DNA of 64,000 nucleotides from Amphiura filiformis (Eukaryota; Echinodermata; Ophiuroidea; Amphilepidida; Amphiuridae): contig NC_092640.1 in assembly GCF_039555335.1 (NCBI RefSeq), positions 28,057,446 to 28,121,445 on the forward strand, written 5' to 3'. Made by a program: the position numbers and the translations under genes. Within the stretch, counting starts at the first letter, position 1. Each line of letters begins with the position of its first letter. The notes under the pieces were generated by a model that was given only the letters and a program-made list of their open reading frames with translations, was not told the DNA's origin and did no database searches. Shown here piece by piece: positions 13,801-61,817 of this stretch.

Positions 13801-16800
13801 ATTGTATGGACCACCACCCCTTATCAAGATATTTGGGGGTACCCTCCCCCTCCATCCCACAATTTACGCCTATATGTCACTGACACGAGGAAAGTAAAAG
13901 CACTATTTATAATATAGTTATACGAATGTATATCCATATATCCAAGTATATCTCCGTTTAACAATGATATTGTGACATTTTGTTGACAGAGTTGTCGGAT
14001 CCATGTTCACCTGATCCGTGTGATTATGGAATCTGCTACTATGACAGCAGCAGAAAAGGGGGCTTTTGGTGTGAATGTTTCGAAGGCTTCAATGGAACCC
14101 ATTGCACCCATGGTTAGTGTGTAGGCCTATATAAGTAAAAGGCTCTATGTATTGAGATATAGCTCGTGAAAAGTTGAGAATCTACCAAGCATAATAAGAC
14201 ACCACGTTTGGTCCTATTCTGTCGGTCGGACATCCGGGCATGAACCGGCTGACAATAGCACTGGAGTGAAAACAACATTCGCATTCACTGAACTCTGGAG
14301 TGTATCACAAGATATATCACACTATTGTGCCAGGTTCGACTCTCTGCAAATAAAAATATGCGATAAGTTGTTTTCACGCATGAATGGATGTGACGTGGCC
14401 CCGACCGGTTGTTTGATGGGATCATTTATTAGTTTTTCAAACAAAACATCATGTATAACCAAGTTTTGGGCTTAAACAGCTAAAAGTGATATTGTGCTAA
14501 TGTATACAGATGCTTTTAAGTCGTTCTCAACTTTAATTTCCCCTCTTTTTCAAAATTATTCTCTTTTATAGTATTTTTTAAAGCTTTCTTGGATATAAAA
14601 TGTATCTATTAATGACCAAATTGGTGGCGCTATTTAGTTACTGGAAATTACGATTTCAAGCTTTTAATACAAATAATTCCTTTTATTTTTTGATACAATT
14701 TGTTTATAACATTTCCTTGTTGCTTGTTTCACCTATTCCAGCTGTTTTAATGGCGGTATTTATCACCTTACCCTTGCAAATAAAGAAATATGATTTAGGA
14801 CAAATAGCGCCATCTATAGTTTGCATTTAGTTAATAATGAAGCCAATTCTATATAAATCAAACAGCCGTGCACTATCAATAGAAAGCGCCACCATCGGCA
14901 CCTATTGGGGCACCGATATCTTTATCGGACAAAACTAAATGTGGCCCCTATAATTGTATGGAGAATATAGACCGTCTACATAATGGGGTTTGCATGTTGT
15001 TCCTTAAAAGCTTCTGTAGATGTTTTTATCCATAACATGGATGTAAATTCCTTTGCAACACGTTTTCTCTACAGATTATTTGAAACCAGAAATATACTGT
15101 GAAGCGGGCTTCAGCTATCAGATAGATATTTATGACGATAGCAGAGAGGTATATTGGGACTTGCCTGGGACGTACGACAACTCAGAAGAATATACTAATG
15201 GGGACGTTACTGTTTGGTGTAACCCGCCATCTGGAACGTCCTTTTCAGAGGGTACAAGAACAGTACTGTGCAAAGCAATTGACGAATCAGGCAACGATGC
15301 AAATTGCACTTTTGATGTGCTTATTACAAGTAAGATGTGTCTAACATTTTTTCTATTGACCCAACCTGACATAGCAATACAGCCTGATATAGTTTGCGGT
15401 TTTCCTCTGAAAATAATAAGTGTTGACTTATGCAGAATAGAAGGAATAGGGGGGTCCTGGTTAAAGGTATGCGGGACTCGTGCCACGGTTTGGGGAAATT
15501 TCAGTGGCGCCCAATTAAGACAAATTTGGATGCATTTTGGGTGTTTTTGTGAAACATTGGTATACTGTTGGGTAGCAAAAAGTATAGAGAAAGTCAGCAT
15601 CCAAAAGTCTGCGTGGCACATTCCCATACAAAGGTTTTCGAAGATCCTCTCCCGGTGGAGGGGGGCATTTCCACAATATAAAATTAGGAACAGCAAAAGT
15701 TAAAACAAAATAATATAATTGCTCTTTCCAAAGGTCCGTCCGTGAACGCCGAGAAAGGCCATCAAGTCTGGGTTTGGTATATGGCAGTGATGAAGCGCCC
15801 ATGACCATGATGACCATCGAAATCCTTTGTGAAGAAATCGACACTACGTCATCTTCAATGTGCACATTCGCTATTTGAGCATGCGCATTAAGGATGTGAT
15901 GATTGATGTATGTCTTGTTTCTTGCAAAATATATAGGGAATTACCAAATCTGTAGGCAGAACCTCAAAGTTCAGACCTTTACATTTTACCAATCACGTTA
16001 TAATATATCAATGTCTTACCTAATTCTAACTTTAACAGAGGATGAAGTTCCTGAAATCAACTGTATTGGAGACCTAACACGGTCAGCTGCTACCGGAGAG
16101 AGATTTGCTGTGGTGTCGTATCCGGAGCCCAATGTTTTCAATGCTAATTCATTTTCATGTTGGCCTGCATCAGGCTCAAACTTTAATATTGGTGATACGG
16201 TCGTGACGTGTCAAGCGTGGAAAAATTCAGTATCTGCACGGTGCCAGTTTAATGTCTATGTTCGAGGTATGTCATTTTGCATTTAACCTCTGTGGTGTTG
16301 CCAAAACAAAGAACTCGCTGACAGTTCCGATATTTTCAAGAGTAAAATACTTGATTGGGTGGAATTGAATTGTTATTATTTTCCATGCAGCAAACAAAAT
16401 AAAACCGAAACAAATCAAGGTGAGTGAAACACCCTGTGAAACACTTATCAACCTTGCATCATTACGAATTCTATAATGCCATAGCTAATTGCTGAAACTT
16501 TTACATATAGGCCAATGAATAAGCTGAATACCATATTATAAATTTAGCATTAGCTGACTATAAACTAAACACCATAAAACCTTTCAAAACAGTCATTTTG
16601 GTGTAAAGAATGGCCCTGTCAATTTTACCGCAACATGTGGAGTCTTACTCCATCTTTTTAACCATGATGTGGATCTCTAACACATTTCAGATTTAGAGAA
16701 ACCCACCATAATTTGCCCGGATTACTTCAGAATCGCTACCGCATATCAGGCATCGTATAACCAAGTTTGGTGGGGCCAACCAGACGCTACGGATAACTCC

Positions 16801-19800
16801 GGTATGGTCCGTCAGTGGTGCGATCCAGACCCAGGATCGATCCTTTATATAGGTGATCACATCATTGTGTGTTATGCCGAGGATAACCATGGCAACCAGG
16901 AATCGTGTTCTTTTGGCGTAGAAGTTTTAGGTAAGAAACTTAACCAAAAATAGTTGAAATTTTGGATGAAATTGTCCTCTTGTATGATTTTTAGGTTGAG
17001 TATTTTCAACCATTTTTGATGAAGATTTCTAAAAGTTGGTTAAAAATCCATAAAAATGGCATTCCTAGATATTTATGTGTGTGGTCAAAATCATGATTTT
17101 TTTATAATCTTCTCAAAACTAAGCATTTTTTACATTAATCTAACGTCACAATATGTCAATTTTTTTTAAACTTGTATACTTTTATATGGCTACTTTAGAC
17201 CAACAATTGTGCAGTTATGATGCCCAATTGTTTCAGAATTCTAGAATTAATACAAACCTTTCAGTCGTAGGCTATAGGGTATCAAATAGAATTTTTAATA
17301 TTGGGTCAAATTGAGAGGTCTTTTTTACGAAAAGAAATGTTAGTACTCTTAATCTACAAAAATATAAAACAACAAAAGCATGTCTACTGTACTCATTCGA
17401 AAAATACTGGCTTGTAACGCCATCATATAGGGCCATTGATAAAAAAGTTTTAAAAAAAGGCAAAAAAACAAAACAAAAAAAAACACAATTTCATTACCAT
17501 GTATAAAGCATGATGTATAAAACATAAACTGATCCCGCCTGCAATTTGCGGTCCAGGGCCACAGTGCTATATCGGACATCCAATAGTCTTTAATGGAAGT
17601 CAGCAGCCTCAGCCCTGCTGGGCTTGCGGCATTTATGTTTTAGCATCGTGGTCCTAGACCACAAATTGCGGACGAAATTAAATCATATTTGCGCCATGAT
17701 AACGTAGTGACCAAGGTCTTATGCGTTCCATGCATGTTAACATTGACTCTCTACCATTTTCAGATAATGAGCCTCCGTCAATCTCATGTCCCGGACGAAA
17801 AGTTCGATCAATGGATTGGGATCAAGATAACGCCCAAATTTGGTTTCTTGGAGAGGTACAGGCATGGGACAATTCTGAGTATCAACCGATAATAGAGTGC
17901 AACCCGCGTGAAGGGTATTTCTCTATGGGAGAGACTGAGGTTGAATGTACAGCCACAGACCAAGCCGGTAACGAACGTGGTTGCAAGTTTGGGGTTAACG
18001 TGTATGGTAAGTGACACACTTAAGAACATGCTCATCTGTATACACAGTTCTTTAAACCCATATGCATCAACATGCATAGAATGAACTTTGGGCGTGCTGG
18101 TTGCAAACACTCGTGCTCCACAACTTCAGGCTAACTTTTAAGCTATGCTTGTTGAATGGCGCAGTTATTGAGCCTTAGGGATGAGATCTTTTCTGAATAA
18201 TATTGACATTATGGTTTATTTGCAGTTAAGTTGAGATCTCGATTTTGGTACCAAGGTAAACAGAGAACTAGAATCATTCAAAATTAAGGTACGAGGACCC
18301 GTGCTAGTCACGTAAAACGTTTTGTTTATGCACAAGACACAGGGGCATGATCAAATGTAGACAAACATACATTTATAGAACGTACCAAAGTGACTTCGCA
18401 ATTGAGAGAGAGAATTGAAAATGTAGGACACGTGTAAATATCTGTTTTGTATGACAACACAAAGAGTGATGTTATTGTTGGCCTAATTTTATGGTGTTAC
18501 TTGAAGGGGCGACTCCATTTGAAATATACACTCCCTGTGTGTGAGATTAAGATCATATCATCCATATAGCGGGTGTATGGATTTCAACTGCAATAGTAAA
18601 TAGCCCAATGTTGGTGGAATGATTTACTGAGTAATGGAAATATCTTGAAATAGAAGTGGCAATATTATTCAACTATATATTCCCCATCCATGATAATGTT
18701 GATCTCATTTACCATTTACAGATAGCCAACAACCAACCATCGTGTGTCCATCCGATATCTACGCCAAACGTGACCCGGACGAAGCAGGCACAAATGTAGA
18801 TTGGGCAGTCCAGGGTGGGACAATGCTGACGACTCACCAGATGTAAACTGTAGACCTGACCAGCAACATGTATTCCTGTTTGGCACAACGACAGTAAGCT
18901 GTGTAGCCGCAGATGAGTCAAATAATCGTGGTTTTTGTCAATTCAACGTGGAAGTCACCGGTGAGTTGTTCTCTTCTCATCATTGAATATTCTCCTTCAC
19001 ACTTCGGTCCAATTTACATACTTAATACTCACGGAGATTGAAAACCAAGGCCGGGCGTAGCCGCTGCCTCGCCTGTTTTGCATCAACATTTCTTGATCGA
19101 TACAAATAAAAAATTGTATAACAAGGAGTGCAAGTATTGAGTGAATGTTCTTAGTCATTCAGTAGTTTCAAACAGAGTTTGGAATTAAATCTAATACTGG
19201 AACTTCCTTTTTGCAACTATTGCGATGTTGCGTCTGGAACCACCAGACTTCATCAGGCAACTGACCCGCAGAGCTGGTCACGTGATAGACGGCTAGGTAT
19301 CGTGACCAGCCCAGCGGGTTGAAGCCTGATGAAGCCTGGTGGTTCCAGGCGCAGCGTCGCAATAGTTGCAAAAAAGCAAGTTCCAGTATTAGATTTAATT
19401 CAAACTCTGAATGCAAGCATTATTGGAAGAAAGGAGAAGCATCCGGTTGAAAAGTACGTTTTGCTGCGGCATAAAAGCGAAAACGAAGTAGATAAGAAGA
19501 CGACTAACGATAGCAACGAATTTTAACAGAGATAAAAAAAATCCTACACATTTTAGTTTTAAATAACCACGCATAATGTGTCCATTTACCATGTTTTACC
19601 AAGTTTAGGCTAGAAGATAATCATAAAAACATTATACCTAAAAACTAGTGAATGGTCCGTCGTCAAACGTGTAATTTGTAATTTTTCGTGATCATCATTT
19701 ATCGTGTTATTGTTACCTTTCTTAACAGATCATGATGTTGCTACCATAACTTGTCCTGATGATATCGAAATAGAAACCATAGCAGGAGACAGTTATAACG

Positions 19801-22800
19801 TGGCTAAGTGGACAACACCAGTGTACACAGTAGACAATAATATACAAGGGACAGTATTTTGTAATTACGATTCGGGTAGCCAATTCAACATTGGCTCTCA
19901 GATGGTGGAATGCACTGTCACATTGGAGAATGGGATATCGTCTGGATGTTCATTCTTTGTTCGAGTAATTGGTAAGTTTATTCCGGAAGAATGTTTGGTA
20001 AACAAATCTTTGGAACAAAAGGTTTGAAAGTGCTTTGGCATGCCTGAAATGTACTGAACAAATTTGGCTTGGACTGCCCTCTTAAAGGTGTCAGGCATTT
20101 TTGGTATGGGTCAATTACGGTCAAACAGGGGGTCAAAATTGTAAATTATCCCAATTCCTTTTAAAAGTATACCAAATTACTTGCCTGATCAAAAAAGTTA
20201 TAGTTTGTCCTATATGCGACCTTTGGCGAGCTATGGTCAGAAACGTAAAATGACCACCAGGATGTACAGGACATACAGACTTAAGCGAGTGTGAGTTACA
20301 TGCTATAAATTAAAGTGATCTAACACTTGAAATGCTTCTGTGGTGCTTCTATACACAGATAACGAAGATCCAACAATACAGTGTCCGGCCAATCAAATCA
20401 TCTTAAGTGAGAACGGAGACCCAGTTACAGTTAACACTGACGGACCAACCTATGATGACAATTCCGGTGCTGTCACTATGTATTGCAGCCCTCACCTAAG
20501 CACAACAGCATTCGACATTGGGTTATGGGAGATTACTTGTGAAGCGGTGGATAGGAGCGTGAATAAAGCCGAATGTACTTTTGGCATCAATATTGTAGCT
20601 GCAGGTGAGATATGTTGTATTGTAAGCTAAGGACCGGAGTCTAAACATCGATTATCAGCTCACTGTTGTATAGCACCATCGATTCAGGAGGGGGATGTCC
20701 AAGTTTCAAGCTGAACCCCAACTAAAATTACTTTTGGATGGTGTTTGCTGTTCCTCTTATAGGCTATGAACTGTGAGAGAAGCACTAGTGTTACTTACGA
20801 ACTCATTAATTTTTTCATCTCATGTCTCTGGGATCGCTTTTAAGCGGTAAAACCACTTAGGTTGATAAATTATTGTTACAGGCCATTTATATATTTTTTT
20901 CTGTTTTTGTTTCTAGCATCAAGCGATCCCTGTGAGGGAGACACAAATCAATGCAACGGTAGAGGGGTCTGTTTAACAACAAGCACAGCAAGTAAACAGT
21001 ATACATGTTCCTGTTTTGAAGGTTGGACTGGACAATTCTGCCAAGGTAGCGTTTAATGCTTCTCTATCTTAATTTCTCTTCTTCGGTGCTTTCTCTTCAT
21101 AAATGGCATAGTGGCGCAGCGGCAACTTCAACTCACGGTCGCGGGGTAGCACGAGGTCGTGGGTTCGAAACAATGTAGCGCCAACCTGTTGTATGAGAGG
21201 AGCTGCGCTACGATCGGGCGAAATGATTTTGATGCATCGCAAAGACAGCGGAATAAATTGTTAATGTTATACCCGTTAAATAACAGAAATTAAGTTAAAA
21301 GTTATTTATTAAAAAAACTTTTTGCCACGACACAGGTCTTCATTTAGACTAACATCACTGCTAAGAATTGTGCTGACTTGGAACATTTAGAATCCTGAAT
21401 ATTTTGTGTAGGCCTACTTTATATAGAAACGTAAAAGCATTGCACTAATACCATTTACTTGCATGCTTTTGTGTTCTCGTCTAGACATTATCACAAGGTA
21501 TTATTTCAATTTCTCTGTTCAGATACTGACTATCAGGACCCATGTGAAGGTCCTGGTGCAGATGGCGACTACAACTGGCAGTGTAATCAGAAAGGCACTT
21601 GTATAACGACAGATATTACTCTTGGGGAGTATACGTGTGAATGCTATGACGGCTGGATTGGAGACCGCTGCGAAGGTAAACACACCAAACGGTATAGGCC
21701 TATATTGCATGTTGCAGAGTCATTGCATGCGTGATCGTGAACCATCCGATTGGGGTGGGGATTGTGGTATTCGGTTTGCTTGAGCAGGAATCAACCGTTT
21801 CACGGTAATGTCAATGGGATATTTCAAAATCGTTACTTCATTTAGGAGCACGTGCGCCCTGCTAATATTACGCTGTGACACTGGCATGTTTGATAGCACC
21901 CGCAAAGCATGGCATTAATTCTCGGATTAAAACCTTTCAGAGGTCTTAACTGATACAGGCCTATTATCTGCAATGTCTTGAGCTTTTTATTATTTAAAAC
22001 TAAAAACTGCCCTATAACCTTTTTTTTTATATTGAAGAACAAGTTGAAATAAAATTTCACATTTCTAGTAACTTGATTGCTTTCAATATCTTTGCTCGTC
22101 CATGTGCAGAAAGTGAAAACGAGAATAGTGAAAGCACTACTGCTGTTGCAGGAGATGGTAATGGAGGCGATGGAAACGGCGATATTGACCGAGAGAACAG
22201 TGCACAATCTGGACTCAACACAGGTAATATTAATATTTGCATCTCGATTACACATGCTGTTAGTATATATCTCTCAAGTATGTGGCTAAGGTTCTAATAA
22301 GCGCTATTTATGGGATTCTTTAAATAGTTCTGGTTTTAGTTTAGTGGTTTAAACCTTTGATCACAACACAAACATTTGCGTACCTGGGATTTTCAGTCGA
22401 CACTTCGACTTTCATCAACAGACTGGCAACCCAAATTAGAGGTCAGTGACCTTTCCGGCACTTGACCCCAAAACCGGGTCGTAGACTCTAGGTAGCTTGT
22501 ATCGGCCCGTCTCTGTTCAGGGATGGCTGGTTCACTCTGAATCAGCTCCTAAATCTATTCAAAGGCACAGCTGGTACATATAATATACTTTTCTATTCTC
22601 TATTTCAGACAATGGTATAAAGATATTTTTTAACATTTTCTGAAGGCACACAATGATTTTACATTTATTTATAGTGTTACTTCCTATGTATCGGTGTACA
22701 TTATTTGGAGATTATTATTTTTTTTGAAAGATGCGAGTCATTTTGTTAACGGAAACACCACACATTTATATTGGTTCTGAAGTAATATACCGAATGAGTT

Positions 22801-25065
22801 CTTGACACTTTCATGCTGACCAACTTTACATAAAAATATTAATGCATAATTCATTTTGTTTATTTATTTCAGCGATCGTAGCTGGAGGAGCATCAGGAGG
22901 ACTGCTAATTGTGATAATAATCTTAGTGGCTATCATAGCGTGTTTCGTTGTTAAAGGCCGAAGGTAAGGACATTTTAAAGAAAATTATTGATACATTTGT
23001 TTCACTGTTACTCGCCGATATAAGGAAATAAACATAGAAGACTGATAAACAGCACCACTGGAACTACACCCATTATGTAGTAGCATTTGGAAAAAGATTT
23101 TGGTATATCTTAGCTTATCTTGTATTTTGCGCCGTTAGCAAGCTGTAGGAAACATATCATAGAACCATTATATTTACATTCGAATTTTTATAATGATGTC
23201 ATTGTATTATGAGGTAGTTGATCTTGTAAGAAAACTAGGTTTGATATCGCTCCCCTTGGAGGTTGAGCTAGTATTTTAAAATTCACACTCATCCTGTGGA
23301 ACATGGCAAATATTTCTAACATCGTCATAGGGGTACTATGTGACCTCATCAAGAATAGTTGGAAAGTTTTTTCAATGTTCATATCGTGTTGCATATCAAT
23401 GTATAGCTAATTTATTCCCCTTTGCAATGACACCACATTTGAAACAATCAGCTGATTCACTGCTGAGTACACGTTATGAATGTAGCGGGCCTTAAACAGA
23501 ATGTGCCAAATTGACCATTATTCTGTGCACAAACAACACTAGTGACTAAAATCAATAGCGGGGGAAAACCATACGCAACCACAACAGTCAGGCACCTCCT
23601 CCTCATGCTGCACACCAGCCTGGTCACATGTTGCTGTGGGATGGCATTCCATTCTTCAACCAGAATTCGTCGCAGGTCATTCAATGTCATTGCATTGCAT
23701 GGCTACTCTGACACGCACATTACGACCAAGCGGGTCCCACAAGTGTTCAATCGGATTGAGGTCTGGGCTGATGGCAGGCTGAGGCTATTCCATTAGCTCT
23801 ACTCCCATATTCTGTAGGTAGTCGTTGACAACCCTGGCACTGTGTTGGCGACCGTTGTCATCTTGGAAGATTGCATTAGGTCACAGATTGTGAAGATACG
23901 GGCTTGCAGCTTGCTGCACAAAGTAGTGGCCAATTTGGCATATCTGTTTGAGACACCACTACTCAGCCGTGAAAAAAATGGTTGTTTCAAATGTGGTGCC
24001 ATTGTAAACGGGGTTAAGTAGCTATCTATTGATATGCAACACGATATCATGTCACAAATAATCTGAGATATAAATGTTTGAAAAAACTTTCCAAACTTTT
24101 GTTGAGGAGGTTATTTAAAATGAATTAGCCAAATACGGCTCTTTTTTAGGTTCGCAATGAACTCATAAGGCAGCTCCATTTGCATTTCATATACCGTCTG
24201 AGAAAGGTTCAACCAGAGATTTTGCCTCAACAAGTGCAATTAATTTCTTTGAGTAATTTTATGGTGTTTTCATGTATATCTTATATGTTTTTTATGTCTT
24301 TTAATGTAAACATTGCAAATGTAATATTTCATGTAATTTGGCCTACAGGCCACGAATTTGAAATAAATTTAATCTGAATCTGAATCTTCCACAGAGGGAT
24401 AGAGTTGGTTCCATTTGAAATTCATTCTCCCAAAATCTTCCACAGGTGGAATGTGGACGGAAAGAAAATGCAAGTACAAGCTCGTTTCTGTCTGGGTAAA
24501 AGTGAGATGGACCAGATGGTAGATTGTAAATGTTACAGAATGAAGACTCATGTGTAAATTATCTGTATTTTCTTATCATTACATAGGTCTAAACCATCAG
24601 AGAGAACACTGTCCACTCATCCCTTAGCTGCATCCAATGGTAGTCAACCTGAAAACGGCAAATCACCTTCAGTAAAGAAGGACGGACTTGAGAATCCAAG
24701 TTATTCCTCCCACATTGATAGCCGGTATTCCCGCACTTCCAACGATATCGCAACCCACAGCTCCTCCAAATATGCCACCGCCAGCGTATACTCCAATGGC
24801 GGCTACAACCGGCAAGAAAATCCCGCCAAGATTGCCAAGTACGAACCCGTCAGCACTATACCAAGGTGGATCTGTAATGTACAGCAGAGGTGGATCGGTA
24901 GCCACATATGGTGGATATGAACGGCCTGATATGAATGGTGGAAATCAGCCAAACCAATCGTATGATAACACTTTGTATGAAACCAATGTTTACGAGGAAC
25001 TTGACGAAGTCACGATAAACCCACCACAGTATGAAGAGCCTGACTATATGGATGTCGAAGGCTGA
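4746..25065 (+). CDS. Gene 1: EGF/HYR single-pass membrane receptor-like protein (17-exon model)
   Basis: Joining 17 exons gives a signal peptide, four EGF, seven HYR, two EGF, a polar linker, one transmembrane helix and a cytoplasmic tail, about 1101 aa if two small indels are read through. All introns are GT-AG and every ectodomain exon is phase 1-1, so domains are cassettes. The start at 4746 is the first in-frame ATG and begins a good signal peptide. Known of the families: EGF and HYR (hyalin repeat) modules mediate extracellular adhesion and binding; HYR proteins are common in echinoderms. The tail carries NPSY, YEEL, YDN and a proline-rich KKIPPRLP, suggesting PTB, SH2 and SH3 partners (inference). 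Odd points: the HYR5 exon is one base short (about 18813) and the tail exon two bases short (about 24732); both bases are present in the second copy, so I suspect sequence error. I do not recognise a named orthologue. Confidence 0.85.
4885..7054 (+). other. Gene 1 intron 1
   Basis: Holds an aaaacgttttaaaacg-rich repeat (6050-6290) of the type also seen at 55970-56587, and a 30-bp inverted repeat (6451-6534, cttgcaggtt ... aacctgcaag). No extra exon found. Confidence 0.5.
7055..7180 (+). CDS. Gene 1 exon 2: EGF 1
   Basis: 126 nt between atag and gtaagc, phase 1-1. Six cysteines in EGF spacing (CETNPC, GTC, YCLC, FTGDFC) with a repeated Gly-Gly-Thr-Ala-Gly insert between cysteines 3 and 4. Confidence 0.85.
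7930..8265. repeat. Foldback with tandem agctccaaaagacccc units, gene 1 intron 2
   Basis: Ends gggtatgttcccc and gggggaacataccc are inverted. Inside are several degenerate copies of an agctc(c/t)(g/a)aaagacccc unit. Confidence 0.6.
8369..8491 (+). CDS. Gene 1 exon 3: EGF 2
   Basis: 123 nt, phase 1-1, acceptor tttcag, donor gtacgt. Typical DPCEPNPCYNGGGC start and CTCEPGWSGRKC end; six cysteines. Confidence 0.88.
8850..12055 (-). mobile_element. Degenerate APE-type non-LTR retrotransposon (LINE), antisense in gene 1 intron 3
   Basis: Minus-strand frames give an endonuclease then a reverse transcriptase. The endonuclease frame (10318-11808) has ICLQEHR, GGDFNA, LDFVLV and SDHRIV. RT blocks include FVDFSKAFDSVN and GILQGDTLAPYLF (9613-9933) and YADDIAL plus LYGSETWT (8852-9652). 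A TGA interrupts NGFRKGR near 10010 and frames shift between blocks, so the copy is dead. RTE/RTEX-like versus CR1-like is unresolved. Confidence 0.85.
12718..12849 (+). CDS. Gene 1 exon 4: EGF 3 with an extra cysteine
   Basis: 132 nt, phase 1-1. EGF with DPCDCSPCLHGGTC start and CYCPADFSGTHC end. It has seven cysteines; the extra one lies between cysteines 1 and 2 and may be unpaired or make an intermolecular bond. A GAT-repeat microsatellite follows the donor. Confidence 0.85.
12860..12932. repeat. GAT-repeat microsatellite
   Basis: Imperfect gatggtgat then uninterrupted gatgatgat just after the EGF 3 donor. Confidence 0.8.
13005..13669. mobile_element. TTAA-flanked MITE in gene 1 intron 4
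   Basis: TTAA then AGGGCAGGTCTATAGC at the left; the exact inverted end (gctatagacctgccct then TTAA) at 13650-13669. A TTAA target duplication is typical of piggyBac-type elements. No transposase inside. Confidence 0.75.
13990..14112 (+). CDS. Gene 1 exon 5: EGF 4
   Basis: 123 nt, phase 1-1, acceptor gacag, donor gttagt. DPCSPDPC start, CECFEGFNGTHC end, six cysteines. It contains an NGT N-glycosylation sequon. Confidence 0.85.
14113..15074 (+). other. Gene 1 intron 5
   Basis: AT-rich with no element recognised. The right contig begins at the point equivalent to 14910. Confidence 0.4.
15075..15329 (+). CDS. Gene 1 exon 6: HYR 1
   Basis: 255 nt, phase 1-1. HYR fold signature: KPEIYC start, YDNS in the middle, then FSEGTRTVLCKAIDESGN and a terminal C-TFDV strand. 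Identical module at 27861-28115. Confidence 0.88.
15330..16038 (+). other. Gene 1 intron 6
   Basis: No exon or clear repeat. In the other copy the G runs here are longer (28236-28245 and 28457-28467), showing run-length differences between copies. Confidence 0.4.
16039..16266 (+). CDS. Gene 1 exon 7: HYR 2
   Basis: 228 nt, phase 1-1. EVPEINC start, FNIGDTVVTCQAW and CQFNVYV end. Shorter than its neighbours in the central loop, so a divergent HYR. Confidence 0.82.
16691..16930 (+). CDS. Gene 1 exon 8: HYR 3
   Basis: 240 nt, phase 1-1. KPTIICP start, WGQPDATDNSG, then YIGDHIIVCYAEDNHGNQ and CSFGVEVL end: classic HYR. The equivalent exon in the second copy is one base shorter. Confidence 0.88.
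16931..17763 (+). other. Gene 1 intron 8
   Basis: AT-rich with several A runs; nothing recognised. Confidence 0.4.
17764..18006 (+). CDS. Gene 1 exon 9: HYR 4
   Basis: 243 nt, phase 1-1. EPPSISCP start, FSMGETEVECTATDQAGNE, CKFGVNV end. Intact and the same length in both copies. Confidence 0.9.
18007..18721 (+). other. Gene 1 intron 9
   Basis: 18520-18600 is a fragment of a repeat (ccatatag-gtgtatggatttcaa) also seen at 50880-51050. Otherwise nothing recognised. Confidence 0.4.
18722..18960 (+). CDS. Gene 1 exon 10: HYR 5 (one base short)
   Basis: Splice sites are good, but the length is 239 rather than 240 nt because a G run at 18813-18815 has three G where the second copy has four. Reading on in the second frame gives VSCVAADESNNRGFCQFNV, the normal HYR end. 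A sequence error or a real frameshift; I favour error. Confidence 0.75.
19173..19409. mobile_element. Foldback MITE in gene 1 intron 10
   Basis: About 237 bp, arms of about 115 bp (cagagtttggaattaaatct ... agatttaattcaaactctg). Present at the same place in the other copy. Confidence 0.75.
19729..19971 (+). CDS. Gene 1 exon 11: HYR 6
   Basis: 243 nt, phase 1-1. DVATITCP start, FNIGSQMVECTV, CSFFVRVI end. Lacks the usual acidic D-x-S-G core, so a divergent HYR. Confidence 0.85.
20359..20604 (+). CDS. Gene 1 exon 12: HYR 7
   Basis: 246 nt, phase 1-1. EDPTIQCP start, DGPTYDDNSG core, FDIGLWEITCEAVDRS, CTFGINIV end. Last HYR before the membrane-proximal EGF pair. Confidence 0.88.
20917..21045 (+). 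CDS. Gene 1 exon 13: EGF 5
   Basis: 129 nt, phase 1-1, acceptor ttctag, weaker donor gtagcg. SSDPCEGDTNQCNGRGVC and CSCFEGWTGQFC; six cysteines. Confidence 0.86.
21105..21200 (+). repeat. tRNA-like SINE head in gene 1 intron 13
   Basis: Box A-like tagtggcgcagcggcaac and box B-like gggttcgaaa about 35 bp apart. Also at 33905-33995. Too degenerate for a working tRNA. Confidence 0.4.
21523..21675 (+). CDS. Gene 1 exon 14: EGF 6
   Basis: 153 nt, phase 1-1. Long EGF with a Gly/Asp/Trp-rich insert between cysteines 1 and 2, then CNQKGTC and CECYDGWIGDRC. Confidence 0.86.
22110..22223 (+). CDS. Gene 1 exon 15: juxtamembrane linker
   Basis: 114 nt, phase 1-1. No cysteines; rich in Ser, Asn, Gly, Asp and Glu (AVAGDGNGGDGNGD). 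Probably a flexible stalk. It resembles the 72-nt linker exon of gene 3 in position, phase and composition. Confidence 0.8.
22873..22963 (+). CDS. Gene 1 exon 16: transmembrane helix
   Basis: 91 nt, entering in phase 1 and leaving in phase 2. Gly/Ala start, then about 20 hydrophobic residues (LLIVIIILVAIIACFVV) and a basic KGR stop-transfer. The gene 3 transmembrane exon has the same length and phases. Confidence 0.88.
23341..24115 (-). mobile_element. Tc1/mariner remnant in gene 1 intron 16
   Basis: Minus-strand fragments read FQDDNGR, VNDYLQNMGVELME, ISPDLNPIEHLWD and EEWNAIPQQHVTRLV of Tc1-type transposase, including the second D and the E of the DDE triad. N-terminal DNA-binding part is missing and stops intervene. 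Inverted ends ttggaaag / ctttccaaac. Confidence 0.85.
24160..24586 (+). other. End of gene 1 intron 16
   Basis: 24340-24385 ends in taatctgaatctgaatc, like the short-repeat tail of a LINE. 24390-24520 is another fragment of the patchy repeat seen at 18520. Same in the second copy at 36945-37370. Confidence 0.35.
24587..25065 (+). CDS. Gene 1 exon 17: cytoplasmic tail, frameshifted in this copy
   Basis: Terminal exon ending in TGA at 25063. It starts R-S-K and runs to an NPSY motif, then two bases are missing at about 24732 relative to the second copy (CCCGC versus CCCACGC), which shifts the frame. The downstream frame still encodes KKIPPRLPS, YDNTLY, YEEL and a terminal YMDVEG. Without the two bases the protein would end early at an out-of-frame stop near 24920. 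Confidence 0.82.
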
Positions 25066-26425
25066 TTGTCCCTATCTTTTTACCAAAGCAACTACGTAAA
25101 ACAACTTTAATTCCTATATATACTTTGTACAACTTTTTACCAAATAAGGTCATCAATTGTAAGATGTAAATCGTGCTTCATAAATTTTATTTGTATTTAC
25201 TTTTACTTCTGGTCTTTTAATGATAATGTATATTAATGTTGTACTTCTTTAAACAGTATTTTTAAAAGCATTGCAGTACGCACTTTTTACTGCAGGGTGC
25301 AGTTGGGGTGTGTGTGTGTCGTGTGGAGGGGTGGGTGGGTGGGGTGCATGTGTGTGATGAGGGTGTGTGGTGTGTATGTATGAGAGGGAGGGATGTTTAA
25401 AGAGTTGTGTTTATCTGTGATTTGTGGGATTTAAAAATCATTAGATGTGGGATGGGGGTGCGTATGAGAAGGTGGGATGTGTCTGTGATGGGAGGGCGTG
25501 TCAGTGTGTATTTTTTTAATATTATTTACGAGCAGTATTTGCACGATTAAGAGTCTTTCAAACATTCAGGTATATTTCTAATTCATTTTAATTTCAAATA
25601 TTATAATCAAGGTAGAAACATGAGATAAAAGGCAGCAGTGAACGAGCTTAGTATCAATACCACTCTCTGTACAAAGTCAATGGGGTTTCTTCATGATAAA
25701 AACGCCGCAAGTCAAAAACGCATCTTTGGCAAAAATTAGAAATTGGCAGGCAAGTTTTTCTCACCCAACATTTTAAAGCAAATCTTTGCTTGATATGTAG
25801 CCGATGTTTCTATCTTGAGGCAAGTCGGAGCTTTAGGTCATATTTTTACCAGTTTGGGTAATTTTGCTTAAATAATACAGTTTATTTCTGCAGAGTAAAA
25901 GTCTACATTGATACAGGAAAAGAGTCAAGGAAGCCATTGGTTATTTTTATATTTTCATATGTATTGCAGTTTATATTGAGTTATAATAAATAATAGGGTC
26001 AAAACGAAAGTTTTCGCTATTTCCCTTCTCCCAGTGAAAATCATGCACATGGGGGAAAGATAATAATACGTATTACAATGAGCATTGGGATCTCATGTAT
26101 TGAACCCATACCTTTCCCTCTGAGTGTGGGCTTTTCTCAATATTTGAGCACAAACACTGCTATAGTTCAGGCACTTCTCCGACTACGCTTTCATTTATAT
26201 TTTGGTGCAATGTACAACGGGTAATTAACACGTTTACATAATAAACCATAATTCACATTATAAACCCATATAATTAAGTCAATAATTCTGGAAAATTGTG
26301 CCATTTTAATATAATAATTATTTTTTATTGTTTTTATATTTGTCAACTTATAAACTCACAGTCTTGTATAAATGTGGCTAGTTTGTTAAATTAAAAGCGT
26401 TGACTTGGATTGTTCTAACCAAAAC
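25066..26425 (+). other. 3' flank of gene 1, first copy
   Basis: Probable 3' UTR then flank. GT/GGGTG-rich low complexity at 25310-25510. AATAAA at about 25986 is a possible poly(A) signal, but it is not conserved in the other copy. Confidence 0.4.
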
Positions 26426-26571
26426 AATAAGCCTTTTTGAAATATGGCGGCAAAGGAGAGGGCGTACTTTGAAGTAAGTAATCTTTTGTCAGTTGAGAAG
26501 CATACAAAATATTACTCACTTTAAAGTACGCCCTCTCCTTTTGTGGCCGCCATATTTCAAAAAGGCTTATT
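26426..26571. mobile_element. Foldback MITE present only in the first copy
   Basis: Arms of about 60 bp (aataagcctttttgaaatat ... and complement) round a 26-bp loop, TA at both edges. The other copy has an uninterrupted caaaacaattata at 39186-39198. Confidence 0.8.
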
Positions 26572-26695
26572 ATTTTTATGAAAATTATACAACGAGTTGA
26601 TTGGCTCGCCAACTAAACTATTTAAAACTCATTTCGTCTGTCTTGATTTAAAACAACTTTAATGATATTCAAGTGGTCTGATTAAGAACGGTAAA

Positions 26696-27696: not shown

Positions 27697-27860
27697 GCAC
27701 CGATAGCTTTATCGGACAAAACTAAATGTGGCCCTATAATTGTATGGAGAATATGGACCGTCTACATAATGGGGTTTGCATGTTGTTCCTTAAAAGCTTC
27801 TGTAGATGTTTTTATCCATAACATGGATGTAAATTCCTTTGCAACACGTTTTCTCTACAG

Positions 27861-28115
27861 ATTATTTGAAACCAGAAATATACTGTGAAGCGGGCTTCAG
27901 CTATCAGATAGATATTTATGACGATAGCAGAGAGGTATATTGGGACTTGCCTGGGACGTACGACAACTCAGAAGAATATACTAATGGGGACGTTACTGTT
28001 TGGTGTAACCCGCCATCTGGAACGTCCTTTTCAGAGGGTACAAGAACAGTACTGTGCAAAGCAATTGACGAATCAGGCAACGATGCAAATTGCACTTTTG
28101 ATGTTCTTATTACAA
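27861..28115 (+). CDS. Second copy: HYR 1 exon
   Basis: 255 nt, intact, phase 1-1; same protein as 15075-15329. Confidence 0.85.
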
Positions 28116-31100: not shown

Positions 31101-34100
31101 GACCCGTGCTAGTCACGTAAAACGTTTTGTTTATGCACAAGACACACAGGGCATGATCAAATGTGACAAACATACATTTATAGAACGTACCAAAGTGACT
31201 TCGCAATTGAGAGAGAGAATTGAAAATGTAGGACACGTGTAAATATCTGTTTTGTATGACAACACAAAGAGTGATGTTATTGTTGGCCTAATTTCATGGT
31301 GTTACTTGAAGGGGCGACTCCATTTGAAATATACACTCCCTGTGTGTGAGATTAAGATCATATCATCCATATAGCGGGTGTATGGATTTCAACTGCAATA
31401 GTAAATAGCCCAATGTTGGTGGAATGATTTACTGAGTAATGGAAATATCTTGAAATAGAAGTGGCAATATTATTCAACTATATATTCCCCATCCATGATA
31501 ATGTTGATCTCATTTACCATTTACAGATAGCCAACAACCAACCATCGTGTGTCCATCCGATATCTACGCCAAACGTGACCCGGACGAAGCAGGCACAAAT
31601 GTAGATTGGGCAGTCCAGGGGTGGGACAATGCTGACGACTCACCAGATGTAAACTGTAGACCTGACCAGCAACATGTATTCCTGTTTGGCACAACGACAG
31701 TAAGCTGTGTAGCCGCAGATGAGTCAAATAATCGTGGTTTTGTCAATTCAACGTGGAAGTCACCGGTGAGTTGTTCTCTTCTCATCATTGAATATTCTCC
31801 TTCACACTTCGGTCCAATTTACATACTTAATACTCACGGAGATTGAAAACCAAGGCCGGGCGTAGCCGCTGCCTCGCCTGTTTTGCATCAACATTTCTTG
31901 ATCGATACAAATAAAAAATTGTATAAAAAGGAGTGCAAGTATTGAGTGAATGTTCTTAGTCATTCAGTAGTTTCAAACAGAGTTTGGAATTAAATCTAAT
32001 ACTGGAACTTCCTTTTTGCAACTATTGCGATGTTGCGTCTGGAACCACCAGACTTCATCAGGCAACTGACCCGCAGAGCTGGTCACGTGATAGACGGCTG
32101 GGTATCGTGACCAGCCCAGCGGGTTGAAGCCTGATGAAGCCTGGTGGTTCCAGGCGCAGCGTCGCAATAGTTGCAAAAAGCAAGTTCCAGTATTAGATTT
32201 AATTCAAACTCTGAATGCAAGCATTATTGGAAGAAAGGAGAAGCATCCGGTTGAAAAGTACGTTTTGCTGCGGCATAAAAGCGAAAACGAAGTAGATAAG
32301 AAGACGACTAACGATAGCAACGAATTTTAACAGAGATAAAAAAATCCTACACATTTGAGTTTTAAATAACCACGCATAATGTGTCCATTTACCATGTTTT
32401 ACCAAGTTTAGGCTAGAAGATAATCATAAAAACATTATACCTAAAAACTAGTGAATGGTCCGTCGTCAAACGTGTAATTTGTAATTTTTCGTGATCATCA
32501 TTTATCGTGTTATTGTTACCTTTCTTAACAGATCATGATGTTGCTACCATAACTTGTCCTGATGATATCGAAATAGAAACCATCGCAGGAGACAATTATA
32601 ACGTGGCTAAGTGGACAACACCAGTGTACACAGTAGACAATAATATACAAGGACAGTATTTTGTAATTACGATTCGGGTAGCCAATTCAACATTGGCTCT
32701 CAGATGGTGGAATGCACTGTCACATTGGAGAATGGGATATCGTCTGGATGTTCATTCTTTGTTCGAGTAATTGGTAAGTTTATTCCGGAAGAATGTTTGG
32801 TAAACAAATCTTTGGAACAAAAGGTTTGAAAGTGTTTTGGCATGCCTGAAATGTACTGAACACATTTGGCTTGGACTGCCCTCTTAAAGGTGTCAGGCAT
32901 TTTTGGTATGGGTCAATTACGGTCAAACAGGGGGTCAAAATTGTAAATTATCCCAATTCCTTTTAAAAGTATACCAAATTACTTGCCTGATCAAAAAGTT
33001 ATAGTTTGTCCTATATGCGACCTTTGGCGAGCTATGGTCAGAAACGTAAAATGACCACCAGGATGTACAGGACATACAGACTTAAGCGAGTGTGAGTTAC
33101 ATGCTATAAATTAAAGTGATCTAACACTTGAAATGCTTCTGTGGTGCTTCTATACACAGATAACGAAGATCCAACAATACAGTGTCCGGCCAATCAAATC
33201 ATCTTAAGTGAGAACGGAGACCCAGTTACAGTTAACACTGACGGACCAACCTATGATGACAATTCCGGTGCTGTCACTATGTATTGCAGCCCTCACCTAA
33301 GCACAACAGCATTCGACATTGGGTTATGGGAGATTACTTGTGAAGCGGTGGATAGGAGCGGAATAAAGCCGAATGTACTTTTGGCATCAATATTGTAGCT
33401 GCAGGTGAGATATGTTGTATTGTAAGCTAAGGACCGGAGTCTAAACATCGATTATCAGCTCACTGTTGTATAGCACCATCGATTCAGGAGGGGGATGTCC
33501 AAGTTTCAAGCTGAACCCCAACTAAAATTACTTTTGGATGGTGTTTGCTGTTCCACTTATAGGCTATGAACTGTGAGAGAAGCACTAGTGTTACTTACGA
33601 ACTCATTAATTTTTTTTTCATCTCATGTCTCTGGGATCGCTTTTAAGCGGTAAAACCACTTAGGTTGATAAATTATTGTTACAGGCCATTTATATATTTT
33701 TTTCTGTTTTTGTTTCTAGCATCAAGCGATCCCTGTGAGGGAGACACAAATCAATGCAACGGTAGAGGGGTCTGTTTAACAACAAGCACAGCAAGTAAAC
33801 AGTATACATGTTCCTGTTTTGAAGGTTGGACTGGACAATTCTGCCAAGGTAGCGTTTAATGCTTCTCTATCTTAATTTCTCTTCTTCGGTGCTTTCTCTT
33901 CATAAATGGCATAGTGGCGCAGCGGCAACTTCAACTCACGGTCGCGGGGTAGCACGAGGTCGTGGGTTCGAAACAATGTAGCGCCAACCTGTTGTATGAG
34001 AGGAGCTGCGCTACGATCGGGCGAAATGATTTTGATGCATCGCAAAGACAGCGGAATAAATTGTTAATGTTATACCCGTTAAATAACAGAAATTAAGTTA

Positions 34101-37100
34101 AAAGTTATTTATTAAAAAAACTTTTTGCCACGACACAGGTCTTCATTTAGACTAACATCACTGCTAAGAATTGTGCTGACTTGGAACATTTAGAATCCTG
34201 AATATTTTGTGTACTTTATATAGAAACGTAAAAGCATTGCACTAATACCATTTACTTGCATGCTTTTGTGTTCTCGTCTAGACATTATCACAAGGTATTA
34301 TTTCAATTTCTCTGTTCAGATACTGACTATCAGGACCCATGTGAAGGTCCTGGTGCAGATGGCGACTACAACTGGCAGTGTAATCAGAAAGGCACTTGTA
34401 TAACGACAGATATTACTCTTGGGGAGTATACGTGTGAATGCTATGACGGCTGGATTGGAGACCGCTGCGAAGGTAAACACACCAAACGGTATAGGCCTAT
34501 ATTGCATGTTGCAGAGTCATTGCATGCGTGATCGTGAATCATCCGATTGGGGTGGGGATTGTGGTATTCGGTTTGCTTGAGCAGGAATCAACCGTTTCAC
34601 GGTAATGTCAATGGGATATTTCAAAATCGTTACTTCATTTAGGAGCACGTGCGCCCTGCTAATATTACGCTGTGATACTGGCATGTTTGATAGCACCCGC
34701 AAAGCATGGCATTAATTCTCGGATTAAAACCTTTCAGAGGTCTTAACTGATACAGGCCTATTATCTGCAATGTCTTGAGCTTTTTATTATTTAAAACTAA
34801 AACTGCCCTATAACCTTTTTTTTTATATTGAAGAACAAGTTGAAATAAAATTTCACATTTCTAGTAACTTGATTGCTTTCAATATCTTTGCTCGTCCATG
34901 TGCAGAAAGTGAAAACGAGAATAGTGAAAGCACTACTGCTGTTGCAGGAGATGGTAATGGAGGCGATGGAAACGGCGATATTGACCGAGAGAACAGTGCA
35001 CAATCTGGACTCAACACAGGTAATATTAATATTTGCATCTCGATTACACATGCTGTTAGTATATATCTCTCAAGTATGTGGCTAAGGTTCTAATAAGCGC
35101 TATTTATGGATTCTTTAAATAGTTCTGGTTTTAGTTTAGTGGTTTAAACCTTTGATCACAACACAAACATTTGCGTACCTGGGATTTTCAGTCGACACTT
35201 CGACTTTCATCAACAGACTGGCAACCCAAATTAGAGGTCAGTGACCTTTCCGGCACTTGACCCCAAAACCGGGTCGTAGACTCTAGGTAGCTTGTATCGG
35301 CCCGTCTCTGTTCAGGGATGGCTGGTTCACTCTGAATCAGCTCCTAAATCTATTCAAAGGCACAGCTGGTACATATAATATACTTTTCTATTCTCTATTT
35401 CAGACAATGGTATAAAGATATTTTTTAACATTTTCTGAAGGCACACAATGATTTTACATAGTGTTACTTCCTTTGTATCGGTGTACATTATTTGGAGATT
35501 ATTATTTTTTTTGAAAGATGCGAGTCATTTTGTTAACGGAAACACCACACATTTATATTGGTTCTGAAGTAATATACCGAATGAGTTCTTGACACTTTCA
35601 TGCTGACCAACTTTACATAAAAATATTAATGCATAATTCATTTTGTTTATTTATTTCAGCGATCGTAGCTGGAGGAGCATCAGGAGGACTGCTAATTGTG
35701 ATAATAATCTTAGTGGCTATCATAGCGTGTTTCGTTGTTAAAGGCCGAAGGTAAGGACATTTTAAAGAAAATTATTGATACATTTGTTTCACTGTTACTC
35801 GCCGATATAAGGAAATAAACATAGAAGACTGATAAACAGCACCACTTGAACTACACCCATTATGTAGTAGCATTTGGAAAAAGATTTTGGTATATCTTAG
35901 CTTATCTTGTATTTTGCGCCGTTAGCAAGCTGTAGGAAACATATCATAGAACCATTATATTTACATTCGAATTTTTATAATGATGTCATTGTATTATGAG
36001 GTAGTTGATCTTGTAAGAAAACTAGGTTTGATATCGCTCCCCTTGGAGGTTGAGCTAGTATTTTAAAATTCACACTCATCCTGTGGAACATGGCAAATAT
36101 TTCTAACATCGTCATAGGGGTACTATGTGACCTCATCAAGAATAGTTGGAAAGTTTTTCAATGTTCATATCGTGTTGCATATCAATGTATAGCTAATTTA
36201 TTCCCTTTGCAATGACACCACATTTGAAACAATCAGCTGATTCACTGCTGAGTACACGTTATGAATGTAGCGGGCCTTAAACAGAATGTGCCAAATTGAC
36301 CATTATTCTGTGCACAAACAACACTAGTGACTAAAATCAATAGCGGGGGAAAACCATACGCAACCACAACAGTCAGGCACCTCCTCCTCATGCTGCACAC
36401 CAGCCTGGTCACATGTTGCTGTGTGATGGCATTCCATTCTTCAACCAGAATTCGTCGCAGGTCATTCAATGTCATTGCATTGCATGGCTACTCTGACACG
36501 CACATTACGACCAAGCGGGTCCCACAAGTGTTCAATCGGATTGAGGTCTGGGCTGATGGCAGGCTGAGGCTATTCCATTAGCTCTACTCCCATATTCTGT
36601 AGGTAGTCGTTGACAACCCTGGCACTGTGTTGGCGACCGTTGTCATCTTGGAAGATTGCATTAGGTCACAGATTGTGAAGATACGGGCTTGCAGCTTGCT
36701 GCACAAAGTAATGGCCAATTTGGCATATCTGTTTGAGACACCACTACTCAGCCGTGAAAAAATGGTTGTTTCAAATGTGGTGCCATTGTAAACGGGGTTA
36801 AGTAGCTATCTATTGATATGCAACACGATATCATGTCACAAATAATCTGAGATATAAATGTTTGAAAAAACTTTCCAAACTTTTGTTGAGGAGGTTATTT
36901 AAAATGAATTAGCCAAATACGGCTCTTTTTTAGGTTCGCAATGAACTCATAAGGCAGCTCCATTTGCATTTCATATACCGTCTGAGAAAGGTTCAACCAG
37001 AGATTTTGCCTCAACAAGTGCAATTAATTTATTTGAGTAATTTTATGGTGTTTTCATGTATATCTTATATGTTTTTTATGTCTTTTAATGTAAACATTGC

Positions 37101-37851
37101 AAATGTAATATTTCATGTAATTTGGCCTACGGGCCACGAATTTGAAATAAATTTAATCTGAATCTGAATCTTCCACAGAGGGATAGAGTTGGTTCCATTT
37201 GAAATTCATTCTCCCAAAATCTTCCACAGGTGGAATGTGGACGGAAAGAAAATGCAAGTACAAGCTCGTTTCTGTCTGGGTAAAAGTGAGATGGACCAGA
37301 TGGTAGATTGTAAATGTTACAGAATGAAGACTCATGTATAAATTATATGTATTTTCTTATCATTACATAGGTCTAAACCATCAGAGAGAACACTGTCCAC
37401 TCATCCCTTAGCTGCATCCAATGGTAGTCAACCTGAAAACGGCAAATCACCTTCAGTAAAGAAGGACGGACTTGAGAATCCAAGTTATTCCTCCCACATT
37501 GATAGCCGGTATTCCCACGCACTTCCAACGATATCGCAACCCACAGCTCCTCCAAATATGCCACCGCCAGCGTATACTCCAATGGCGGCTACAACCGGCA
37601 AGAAAATCCCGCCAAGATTGCCAAGCACGAACCCGTCTGCTCTTTACCAAGGTGGATCTGTAATGTACAGCAGAGGTGGATCGGTAGCCACATATGGTGG
37701 ATATGAACGGCCTGATATTAATGGTGGAAATCAGCCAAACCAATCGTATGATAACACTTTGTATGAAACCAATGTTTACGAGGAACTTGACGAAGTCACG
37801 TTAAACCCACCACAGTATGAAGAGCCTGAATATATGGATGTCGAAGGCTAA
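27861..37851 (+). CDS. Second copy of gene 1, 3' part (12 exons, HYR1 to tail), broken by single-base indels
   Basis: Twelve exons in the same order, phase and spacing as gene 1 exons 6-17, with introns and intronic repeats also nearly identical. The signal peptide and first four EGF exons are absent; the copy begins right after the 200-N gap. Four HYR exons (3, 5, 6, 7) are each one base short, while EGF, linker, transmembrane and tail exons are intact. The tail here is the better reference: 481 nt, one frame, stop TAA at 37849. Few amino-acid differences from gene 1 (for example M to I, I to L, D to E in the tail). Most likely the other haplotype of the same locus; a real partial duplicate or pseudogene is the alternative. 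Confidence 0.8.
28842..29069 (+). CDS. Second copy: HYR 2 exon
   Basis: 228 nt, intact, same protein as 16039-16266. Confidence 0.85.
29492..29730 (+). CDS. Second copy: HYR 3 exon, one base short
   Basis: 239 nt instead of 240; an A/G run near 29496-29502 lost a base (tagaaaaccc against tagagaaaccc). Read literally, this brings a TAA within the first eight codons. Confidence 0.75.
30569..30811 (+). CDS. Second copy: HYR 4 exon
   Basis: 243 nt, intact, same protein as 17764-18006. Confidence 0.87.
31527..31765 (+). CDS. Second copy: HYR 5 exon, one base short at a different place
   Basis: 239 nt. The G run that is short in gene 1 is full length here (VQGWDNADDS reads through), but a T run at about 31738-31741 has four T where gene 1 has five, shifting the end of the exon. 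Confidence 0.75.
31978..32213. mobile_element. Foldback MITE, second copy
   Basis: Same element and position as 19173-19409. Confidence 0.75.
32532..32773 (+). CDS. Second copy: HYR 6 exon, one base short
   Basis: 242 nt instead of 243; GG at 32651-32652 where gene 1 has GGG. Otherwise the same module, with one Ser to Asn change. Confidence 0.75.
33160..33404 (+). CDS. Second copy: HYR 7 exon, one base short
   Basis: 245 nt instead of 246; a T is missing just after 33360 (agcggaat against agcgtgaat). Confidence 0.75.
33720..33848 (+). CDS. Second copy: EGF 5 exon
   Basis: 129 nt, intact, identical protein to 20917-21045. Confidence 0.85.
34320..34472 (+). CDS. Second copy: EGF 6 exon
   Basis: 153 nt, intact, identical protein to 21523-21675. 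Confidence 0.85.
34906..35019 (+). CDS. Second copy: linker exon
   Basis: 114 nt, intact, same Asn/Gly/acidic linker as 22110-22223. Confidence 0.8.
35660..35750 (+). CDS. Second copy: transmembrane exon
   Basis: 91 nt, intact, same helix as 22873-22963. Confidence 0.87.
36131..36894 (-). mobile_element. Tc1/mariner remnant, second copy
   Basis: Same insertion as 23341-24115, differing by a few bases. Confidence 0.85.
37371..37851 (+). CDS. Second copy: cytoplasmic tail exon, intact
   Basis: 481 nt in one frame, about 160 residues. In order: R-S-K start, basic/Ser-rich stretch, NPSY (37477-37488, NPxY type), PPNMPPPAY, KKIPPRLPS (37600-37626, fits the class I SH3 ligand K-x-x-P-x-x-P), Gly/Tyr-rich section, YDN, YEEL, YEEP and terminal YMDVEG. 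Confidence 0.87.
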
Positions 37852-39341
37852 TTGTCCCTATATTATTTTACCAAAGCAACTACGTAAAACAACTTAATTC
37901 CTATTATACTTTGTACAACTTTTTACCAAATAAGGTCATCAATTGTAAGATGTAAATCGTGCTTCATAAATTTTATTTGTATTTACTTTTTCTTCTGATC
38001 TTTTAATGATAATGTATATTGATTTTGTACTTCTTTAAACAGTATTTTTAAAAGCATTGCAGTACGCACTTTTTACTGTAGGGTGCAGTTGGGGTGTGTG
38101 TGTGTGTGGAGGTGGAGGGGGGGGTGAGTGTGTGTGATGAGGGGTGTGGTGTGCGCATGTATGAGAGGGAAGGAAGTTTAAAGAGTTGTGTGTTTGTCTG
38201 TGATTTGTGTGGTGTAAAATCATAGATGTGGGAGGTGTGTAAGGAGGTGTCAGTGTGTGTTTTATTATTATTTGAGCAGTATTTGCACGATTAAGAGTCT
38301 TTCCTGTCATAATTACGAGTATTTGTGTTCAATATGCATTTCACATTAATGTCTTTCAAACATTCAGGTATATTTCTAATTCATTTTAATTTCAAACATT
38401 ATAGTTTTAATTATAATTAAAAGGTAGAAACATCGGATAAAAGGCATATGCAGTAGTCAACGAGCTTGGTGTCAAAACCACTCTCTGTACAAATTCTTTA
38501 TGATAAAAACGCCAAGTGAAAAACGCATGTTTGGCAAAAATTGAAGTTTTTCTCACCCAACGTTTTAAACCAAATCTTTGCTTGATATCTCGGAGCCTTT
38601 AGGTCATACTTAACCAGATTTGTTAATTTTTTACCAGTCAAATAATACAGTTTATTTCTGCAGACTAATAGTCTGCATTGATCTTACAAGAAATGTGAAG
38701 CCACTAGTCATATTTATATTTACATATGTATTGCAATTATTAATTGAGTTATGATGAATAATAGGTCAAACAAAAGTTTTCGCTATAGCAATAGGTTAAA
38801 ACAATTTTTGAATATTATCGCACTTTACTAGTACCTTCACGCAATCTGTATACCTCTGTATTGAACCATATTATCATGCTGATCACTCGCTTTTGTAAGA
38901 TTAGTATGATAAGAGCGGTATAGTATTCAATCTTTGGTTGCAGACATTTACAGGTGAGTGCAACCTAGTGCAGGGCGATATATTCAAAAATAGCATTCAT
39001 TTATTTCTATGGTAGTTAATCCTGTTACATAATTAAGTCAATTATTCAGGAAAATTGTGCCATTTTAATATCAAAATAATTTTTATTGTTTTTTATTTTT
39101 GTCAACTTATAAACTCACAGTCTTGTATAAATGTAGCTAGTTTGTTAATGTTGAATTAAAAACGTTGAGTCGGATTGTTCTAACCAAAACAATTATATTT
39201 ATGAAGATTATACAACGAGTTGATTGGCTCGCCGATTAAACTTTTTAAAACTCATTTCGTCTGTCTTAATCAGTCTATATATTAAAACAACTTTAATAAT
39301 ATTCAACTGGTGTGATCAAGACAAGTAAAACGTCTATGGAT
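37852..39341 (+). other. 3' flank of gene 1, second copy
   Basis: GT-rich tract at 38090-38260; otherwise AT-rich. Has indels against 25066-26690, including lack of the 26426 foldback. No gene. Confidence 0.4.
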
Positions 39342-39520
39342 TCTTGTTTCAAGATAGGGCACTTTATACCCAGATATAAAGGACGTAAACCTAAAATAAC
39401 GCAGCCTAAACCATGTTGACGTTCCTTATTTCAGGATAAGGTATATACTTTAGCCAGGGTTAGGTTGTATTATTTTAGGTTTACGCCCTTTATATCTGAA
39501 TATAATGTGCCCTATCTTAA
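39342..39520. mobile_element. Foldback element, second copy
   Basis: Counterpart of 26696-26923, shorter by small deletions. Confidence 0.6.
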
Positions 39521-39690
39521 TATATAAACGTGTAACCTGTCTTGATTAGACCAGTTGAATCTCTACACAGACTTGTTGGAGGCTACTTTCAGGAACGTCA
39601 ACTGGTACGTCAACCATATGTATGAGGAGATTTTCATTATACTTTTACAGAACTGAGGTGGATTTTACTAACATTGAAAGTCCTTAAGGG

Positions 39691-40321
39691 CTCGGATAGC
39701 GACACTTTCATGTATATTTTTGTGGGCCGCGCCCTGAGAGCACATCAGACATACCGAATAGCATTTTGAATACGAGGAATGTCCTCATGATATCAAATAA
39801 TTTTGTTTTGTTTTTAAATTCGAGATAAAAATATTTTATGGCAAATGATTAGAAATTAATGTTTTTGAAATCTAACAGTCCTCGAAGTAAATTGTATAAA
39901 TCTAATGATATGTCCATAAAGTGTATTTAGCTGTAGCTGGGATGAAAAGCCGTCCATCATATAAAATCTTGAACTTTCGTATTGAAGATATAAATTTTTT
40001 CCCTCAAACACCAAAAAAATGAAGGTCTTTTTGGGAAAAACATGTATATCTTCAATAAGAAGAGTCAAAATTTCCAATTTATTGTCGGCTTTTCATCCCA
40101 GCTACATACACTGTGAGTATATGTCATTAGATTTATAAAGTTTACTTCGAAGACTGTTAAATATCAAAAATATAAAATTTGCCAAAAAAATTGTATTATA
40201 TCGCGAATTTCAAAAAATTATTTGATATCATCAGCACATTTCTTTTATCCATAATGCAATTCGACATGTCTGATGTGCTTTCAGGTCCCACAAAAGTACT
40301 GTGCAAATGTCGCTATCCGAG
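39691..40321. mobile_element. Complete large foldback element (631 bp)
   Basis: Ends ctcggatagcgac and gtcgctatccgag; arms of about 300 bp pair almost throughout (gatgaaaagccg / cggcttttcatc near the centre). No coding capacity. Confidence 0.8.

Positions 40322-44090: not shown

Positions 44091-61817
<17,727 letters not shown>

Follow-up and report, generated by a model that had tools for sequence, protein, structure and literature searches.

An EGF/HYR receptor gene probably written twice across an assembly gap in Amphiura filiformis

Overlapping contigs that remain unmerged are a common artefact, by which false duplications inflate gene counts. The class has been described by Ko et al. 2022, and the main characteristics given in the available part of that paper are a depth that is halved or very low, gaps separating the pair, linked reads that are discordant or spanning, and 1-copy k-mers (PMC9516828). 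Heterotype duplications are recognized there by haploid-level depth and 1-copy k-mers at heterozygous multiplicity, homotype duplications by lower depth. In the same text, an excess of erroneous k-mers or sequence errors goes with false duplications as a correlate, and boundaries between homozygous and heterozygous sequence are described as prone to them (PMC9516828).

We analyzed a window of 64,000 nucleotides from the ophiuroid A. filiformis, in which two nearly identical copies of part of a cell-surface receptor gene lie on either side of a gap. As in the heterotype and homotype cases excerpted from Ko et al. 2022, the copies are adjacent across the gap, a partial gene is repeated and possible signs of consensus error are present; a boundary between near-identical and diverged sequence is found within the overlap as well (PMC9516828). 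Unlike either type alone, the locus seems to be mixed, with a homotype-like first 10 kb and a heterotype-like tail (PMC9516828). While the published class, in the text seen, is defined by depth, linked reads and k-mer multiplicity, this locus is placed in it from sequence alone (PMC9516828). The locus also resembles a true tandem duplication with gene conversion, being composed of adjacent copies in the same orientation with a homogenized gene body and a diverged 3' flank. It differs from such a duplication in that the second copy is without 5' exons, the junction is unseen and the frameshifts are private to each copy.

Geometry of the overlap at the gap

14910..27496, plus strand: left copy of the overlap, at the end of the left contig (self-comparison and alignment)
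27497..27696: assembly gap of exactly 200 N, the only N run in the window (n = 1; N-run scan)
27697..40138, plus strand: right copy of the overlap, at the start of the right contig (self-comparison and alignment)

The overlap is a collinear direct repeat, with a left copy of 12,587 bases and a right copy of 12,442 bases. It opens at the first base of the right contig (27697, partner 14910) and closes at the last base of the left contig (27496, partner 40138), and in this both self-BLAST and alignment agree with the original prediction. Self-BLAST matched 14910-26020 to 27697-38786 at 97.0%, 26270-26428 to 39029-39193 at 89% and 26569-27496 to 39192-40138 at 84%. Global alignment of the two copies contained 11,890 matches, 409 mismatches and 78 indels.

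The sequence between the copies consists of Ns alone, so that a sequenced junction of unit 1 and unit 2, by which a true tandem would be recognized, is absent; a gap between the pair on one scaffold, here of 200 N, is among the signs of false duplication in Ko et al. 2022. In one other assembly, scaffolded with YaHS, 54 gaps of 200 N are reported in the part of the paper available (PMC12134992), and the accessible portion of the YaHS paper itself gives no gap size.

The flush breakpoints had been put forward as an argument against a real tandem duplication. We find this argument not to be decisive, since a real junction hidden in a gap of unknown true size produces identical flush ends. In a simulation with random gap positions inside the pair and the visible overlap fixed at 12,587 bases, flush ends were obtained for 0.8% of the positions at a true gap of 200 bases, 17% at 5 kb, 24% at 7,855 bases and 28% at 10 kb (a further simulation used fixed unit lengths). 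The value of 7,855 bases is the least hidden gap able to hold the four EGF exons of a second gene. Flush ends favor an artefact only insofar as the true gap is thought to be short, and the run of 200 N could be a placeholder. The outer flanks (1-14909 versus 40139-64000) resemble each other in only eight short pieces, of which the longest has 296 aligned bases. This dissimilarity does not discriminate between the readings, because the ends of a longer unit would fall in the gap. Further, reads joining 14909 directly to 40139 had been proposed as a sign of collapse; this was misworded, as such reads would mean that the block is absent.

Gene content of the overlap

7055-7180, 8369-8491, 12718-12849 and 13990-14112 (span 7055..14112), plus strand: four EGF exons upstream of the block, left contig only (splice motifs)
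15075..25065, plus strand: exons of the left copy, namely HYR1-7, two EGF, stalk, TM and cytoplasmic tail (Pfam, profiles, reading frames)
27861..37851, plus strand: the same 12 exons in the right copy (profiles, copy comparison)

All five HYR exons tested against Pfam (four left, one right) matched PF02494 above the cut-off. Seven HYR exons per copy were found by a local HYR profile, made from five exons that it later recovered, and two EGF exons after the HYR exons in each copy by a local EGF profile made from two. A search of solved structures by phmmer with one HYR exon gave no match up to E = 1. The stalk, transmembrane and tyrosine-rich tail exons that come next were recognized by visual inspection of reading frames and splice motifs. 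AG acceptors are present on 12/12 exons and GT donors on 11/11 internal exons in both copies, the exon bounds being splice motifs read by eye rather than transcripts.

The first base of the right copy lies in the intron that precedes HYR1, and this copy is without the four EGF exons found upstream in the left contig, although a real second copy could carry them in the gap. Merged, the locus reads as one predicted type I membrane receptor, EGF4-HYR7-EGF2-stalk-TM-tail. If the duplication is an artefact, EGF/HYR gene and exon counts taken from the assembly include one partial gene too many, and private frameshifts may lead to an annotation of damage in both copies.

Divergence zones and private frameshifts

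14910..24839: near-identical zone in which mismatches amount to 0.33% and indels are roughly as common (alignment and change point)
24840..27496: diverged zone, divergence climbing from about 3% to 8%, some segments replaced (alignment and change point)
23375-24120 and 36161-36904: dispersed repeat common to both copies (self-BLAST; further copy at 46360-47054)
26427..26568: 142-base foldback insertion, left copy only (alignment; empty site near 39191)
26664-26950 and 39301-39560: inverted-repeat element common to both copies (inverted-repeat comparison)
39680..40332: nested inverted repeat in the right contig, one arm of which contains 40138

Between 14910 and 24877 the copies differ by 37 mismatches in 9,935 aligned bases and by 35 indels; 27 of these indels are one base long and 20 lie in homopolymers of four or more. 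Mismatches were then counted at 24/514 in 24878-25399, at 260/799 in 25400-26269, parts of which look non-homologous, and at 88/1051 (8.4%) in 26270-27496. A change point fitted to the whole overlap was placed at 25327 (from 0.45% to 18.8%), and a fit restricted to the sequence up to 25300 placed it at 24840 (from 0.33% to 3.1%), within the last exon. The kind of difference changes as well: the indel-to-mismatch ratio is 35:37 in the first zone versus 19:88 in 26270-27496 (P = 1.4e-5), and homopolymer indels make up 20/35 versus 2/19 (P = 0.001).

We read the first zone as probably almost the same sequence with consensus errors added, and the tail as a likely real haplotype difference. The tail contains copy-specific sequence, and the 142-base foldback of the left copy, for which the right copy has an empty site, speaks for a real difference there. 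Shared insertions had been claimed for the two copies, which holds for the inverted-repeat element and the dispersed repeat and fails for this foldback. Sequencing error as the source of all differences in the overlap was rejected, as the tail is dominated by substitutions and carries a private insertion with an empty site.

The 12 coding exons contain six frameshifting indels, each of which removes bases from the open frame. Two are private to the left copy (HYR5 and the tail exon) and four to the right copy (HYR3, HYR5, HYR6 and HYR7); none of the six is common to both, and at each site the bases are present in the other copy. Silent changes account for 7/11 coding substitutions overall, for 2/3 from HYR1 to TM and for 5/8 in the tail exon, where the count takes in a changed stop codon; the stop lies at the same position in both copies. 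Indel density is 2.4 per kb in coding and 3.9 per kb in non-coding sequence (P = 0.33); coding indels are thus not clearly rarer, as expected of errors. Judged from the sequence, the private losses together with the substitution pattern would be better explained by consensus error than by two genes decaying independently.

Unique coding sequence contained no frameshifts in about 3,006 bases, compared with six in the block, a difference in the direction expected of consensus error that is nevertheless not significant (P = 0.07 one-sided, 0.09 two-sided). For this count, seven of the 14 minus-strand EGF matches in the window were delimited, some incompletely. Six more, open in frame, were counted by domain length, and the last, at 56691-56780, was left out. 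The minus-strand tail frame 44094-45110 was counted whole (1,017 bases), of which the upstream part may be non-coding, and unique-sequence exons with frameshifts could have escaped the profiles.

A real tandem duplication would have to have lost its junction to the gap, together with the 5' portion of gene 2 and the flank downstream of gene 1, and conversion or recent exchange would have to maintain 99.7% identity over about 10 kb as the 3' flanks diverged to about 8%. We consider this unlikely. The gap geometry permits it, the switch to high divergence sits in the last exon (24840), and a related EGF gene adjoins, so duplications have occurred locally. Nevertheless, no fewer than 7,855 bases would need to be concealed in the gap if it is to contain the four EGF exons of gene 2, the tract of conversion would need to reach beyond 14910, and both copies carry private frameshifts (2 and 4) despite a majority of silent coding substitutions. 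Gene conversion between paralogs would likewise account for a near-identical gene body next to diverged 3' flanks. One specific form of it, a single conversion tract of at least 10 kb that ends inside the last exon of a real EGF/HYR receptor pair with 3' flanks at about 8%, appears slightly less probable again.

Alternatively, the end of the left contig could be chimeric, following this locus to about 24.8-25.3 kb and then continuing with related sequence from elsewhere. The switch is indeed abrupt (0.33% to 3-8%), and the terminal sequence of the left contig has its partner in a foldback. However, the tail is collinear with the right copy over about 2.6 kb. This collinearity, the shared stop position and the silent substitutions suit a second allele better than a chimera, which we regard as very improbable; even a chimeric end would leave the first 10 kb of the overlap a false duplication.

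We return to assembly false duplication, in which overlapping contigs were left unmerged and one gene was written twice, as the highly probable explanation. The original prediction of unmerged contigs across the 200-N gap is upheld as the best explanation by the overlap, the two zones and the private losses. The two-zone divergence and the private frameshifts, which it did not contain, say more than the flush ends; gap-flush ends are no proof of false duplication, and the divergence pattern and private frameshifts are informative without reads. Additional points in favor are the missing 5' exons of the right copy and the coherent merged gene. Against it stand a tail divergence that is high for alleles and the fact that only 2/6 coding losses fall within homopolymers at least four bases long. 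Single segments can exceed genome-mean heterozygosity. In amphioxus, the heterozygosity stated in the available part of one report is 3.2-4.2%, below the 8.4% of the overlap tail (PMC12862219), and highly divergent regions between haplotypes have been reported, according to the excerpt seen of another (PMC6461651). As a case, the locus is ordinary and a member of an already described artefact class.

We infer that the two copies represent alleles, or in part a single haplotype, rather than paralogs; errors would explain the differences of the first zone, and the assembly would have branched. Two contigs with an overlap of about 12.5 kb would have been placed in succession across a 200-N gap when they should have been merged. 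Both would represent almost the same sequence from 14910 to about 24840, differing largely by consensus errors; beyond about 24840 the two haplotypes would truly differ, and the assembly would have branched there. The first contig would have followed one haplotype until it ended within a foldback repeat, and the second would have begun upstream in the shared part and continued along the other haplotype. The position of 40138, the partner of the left contig's last base, inside an inverted-repeat arm places the stop of the left contig within a foldback. On this reading, a single plus-strand receptor gene of the merged architecture would be present in the animal at this locus.

The minus-strand EGF gene and other features of the window

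The claim of a single EGF/HYR gene holds for the plus-strand HYR gene, and has to be qualified by an EGF relative without detected HYR on the minus strand at about 44.1-57.7 kb. This EGF-rich gene (44091-57714) accounts for the 14 minus-strand EGF matches of the local profile, and the local HYR profile found no HYR domains in it. The string KKIPPRLPS was seen by eye in the tail frames of both the minus-strand and the plus-strand gene. The two genes look like paralogs arranged tail to tail. At 52142-54905, EGF exons of the minus-strand gene recur together with their flanks at 82-94% on a single gap-free contig, which looks like a real internal exon duplication, in contrast to the gap-flanking block. 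An EGF exon at 56691-56780 (minus strand) is degenerate-looking, with several conserved positions lost.

Within the intron between two plus-strand EGF exons, 8852-11995 contains non-LTR-retrotransposon-like frames on the minus strand. The endonuclease frame (10321-11820, minus) matches PF03372 and PF14529, and the reverse-transcriptase-like frames (8852-10005, minus) were recognized by eye only. Rfam (gathering thresholds) and tRNA scans across the window gave no match. A direct repeat of about 355 bases, 95% identical, lies in the right contig (41056-41413 versus 41617-41968), and an inverted dispersed repeat links 811-1106 with 45478-45773 (90.5% over 296 bases). Over-representation of the palindrome TAGGCCTA is known from echinoderm-like genomes and is not relied on here; in this window it occurs 14 times, versus about 0.5 expected from dinucleotide content.
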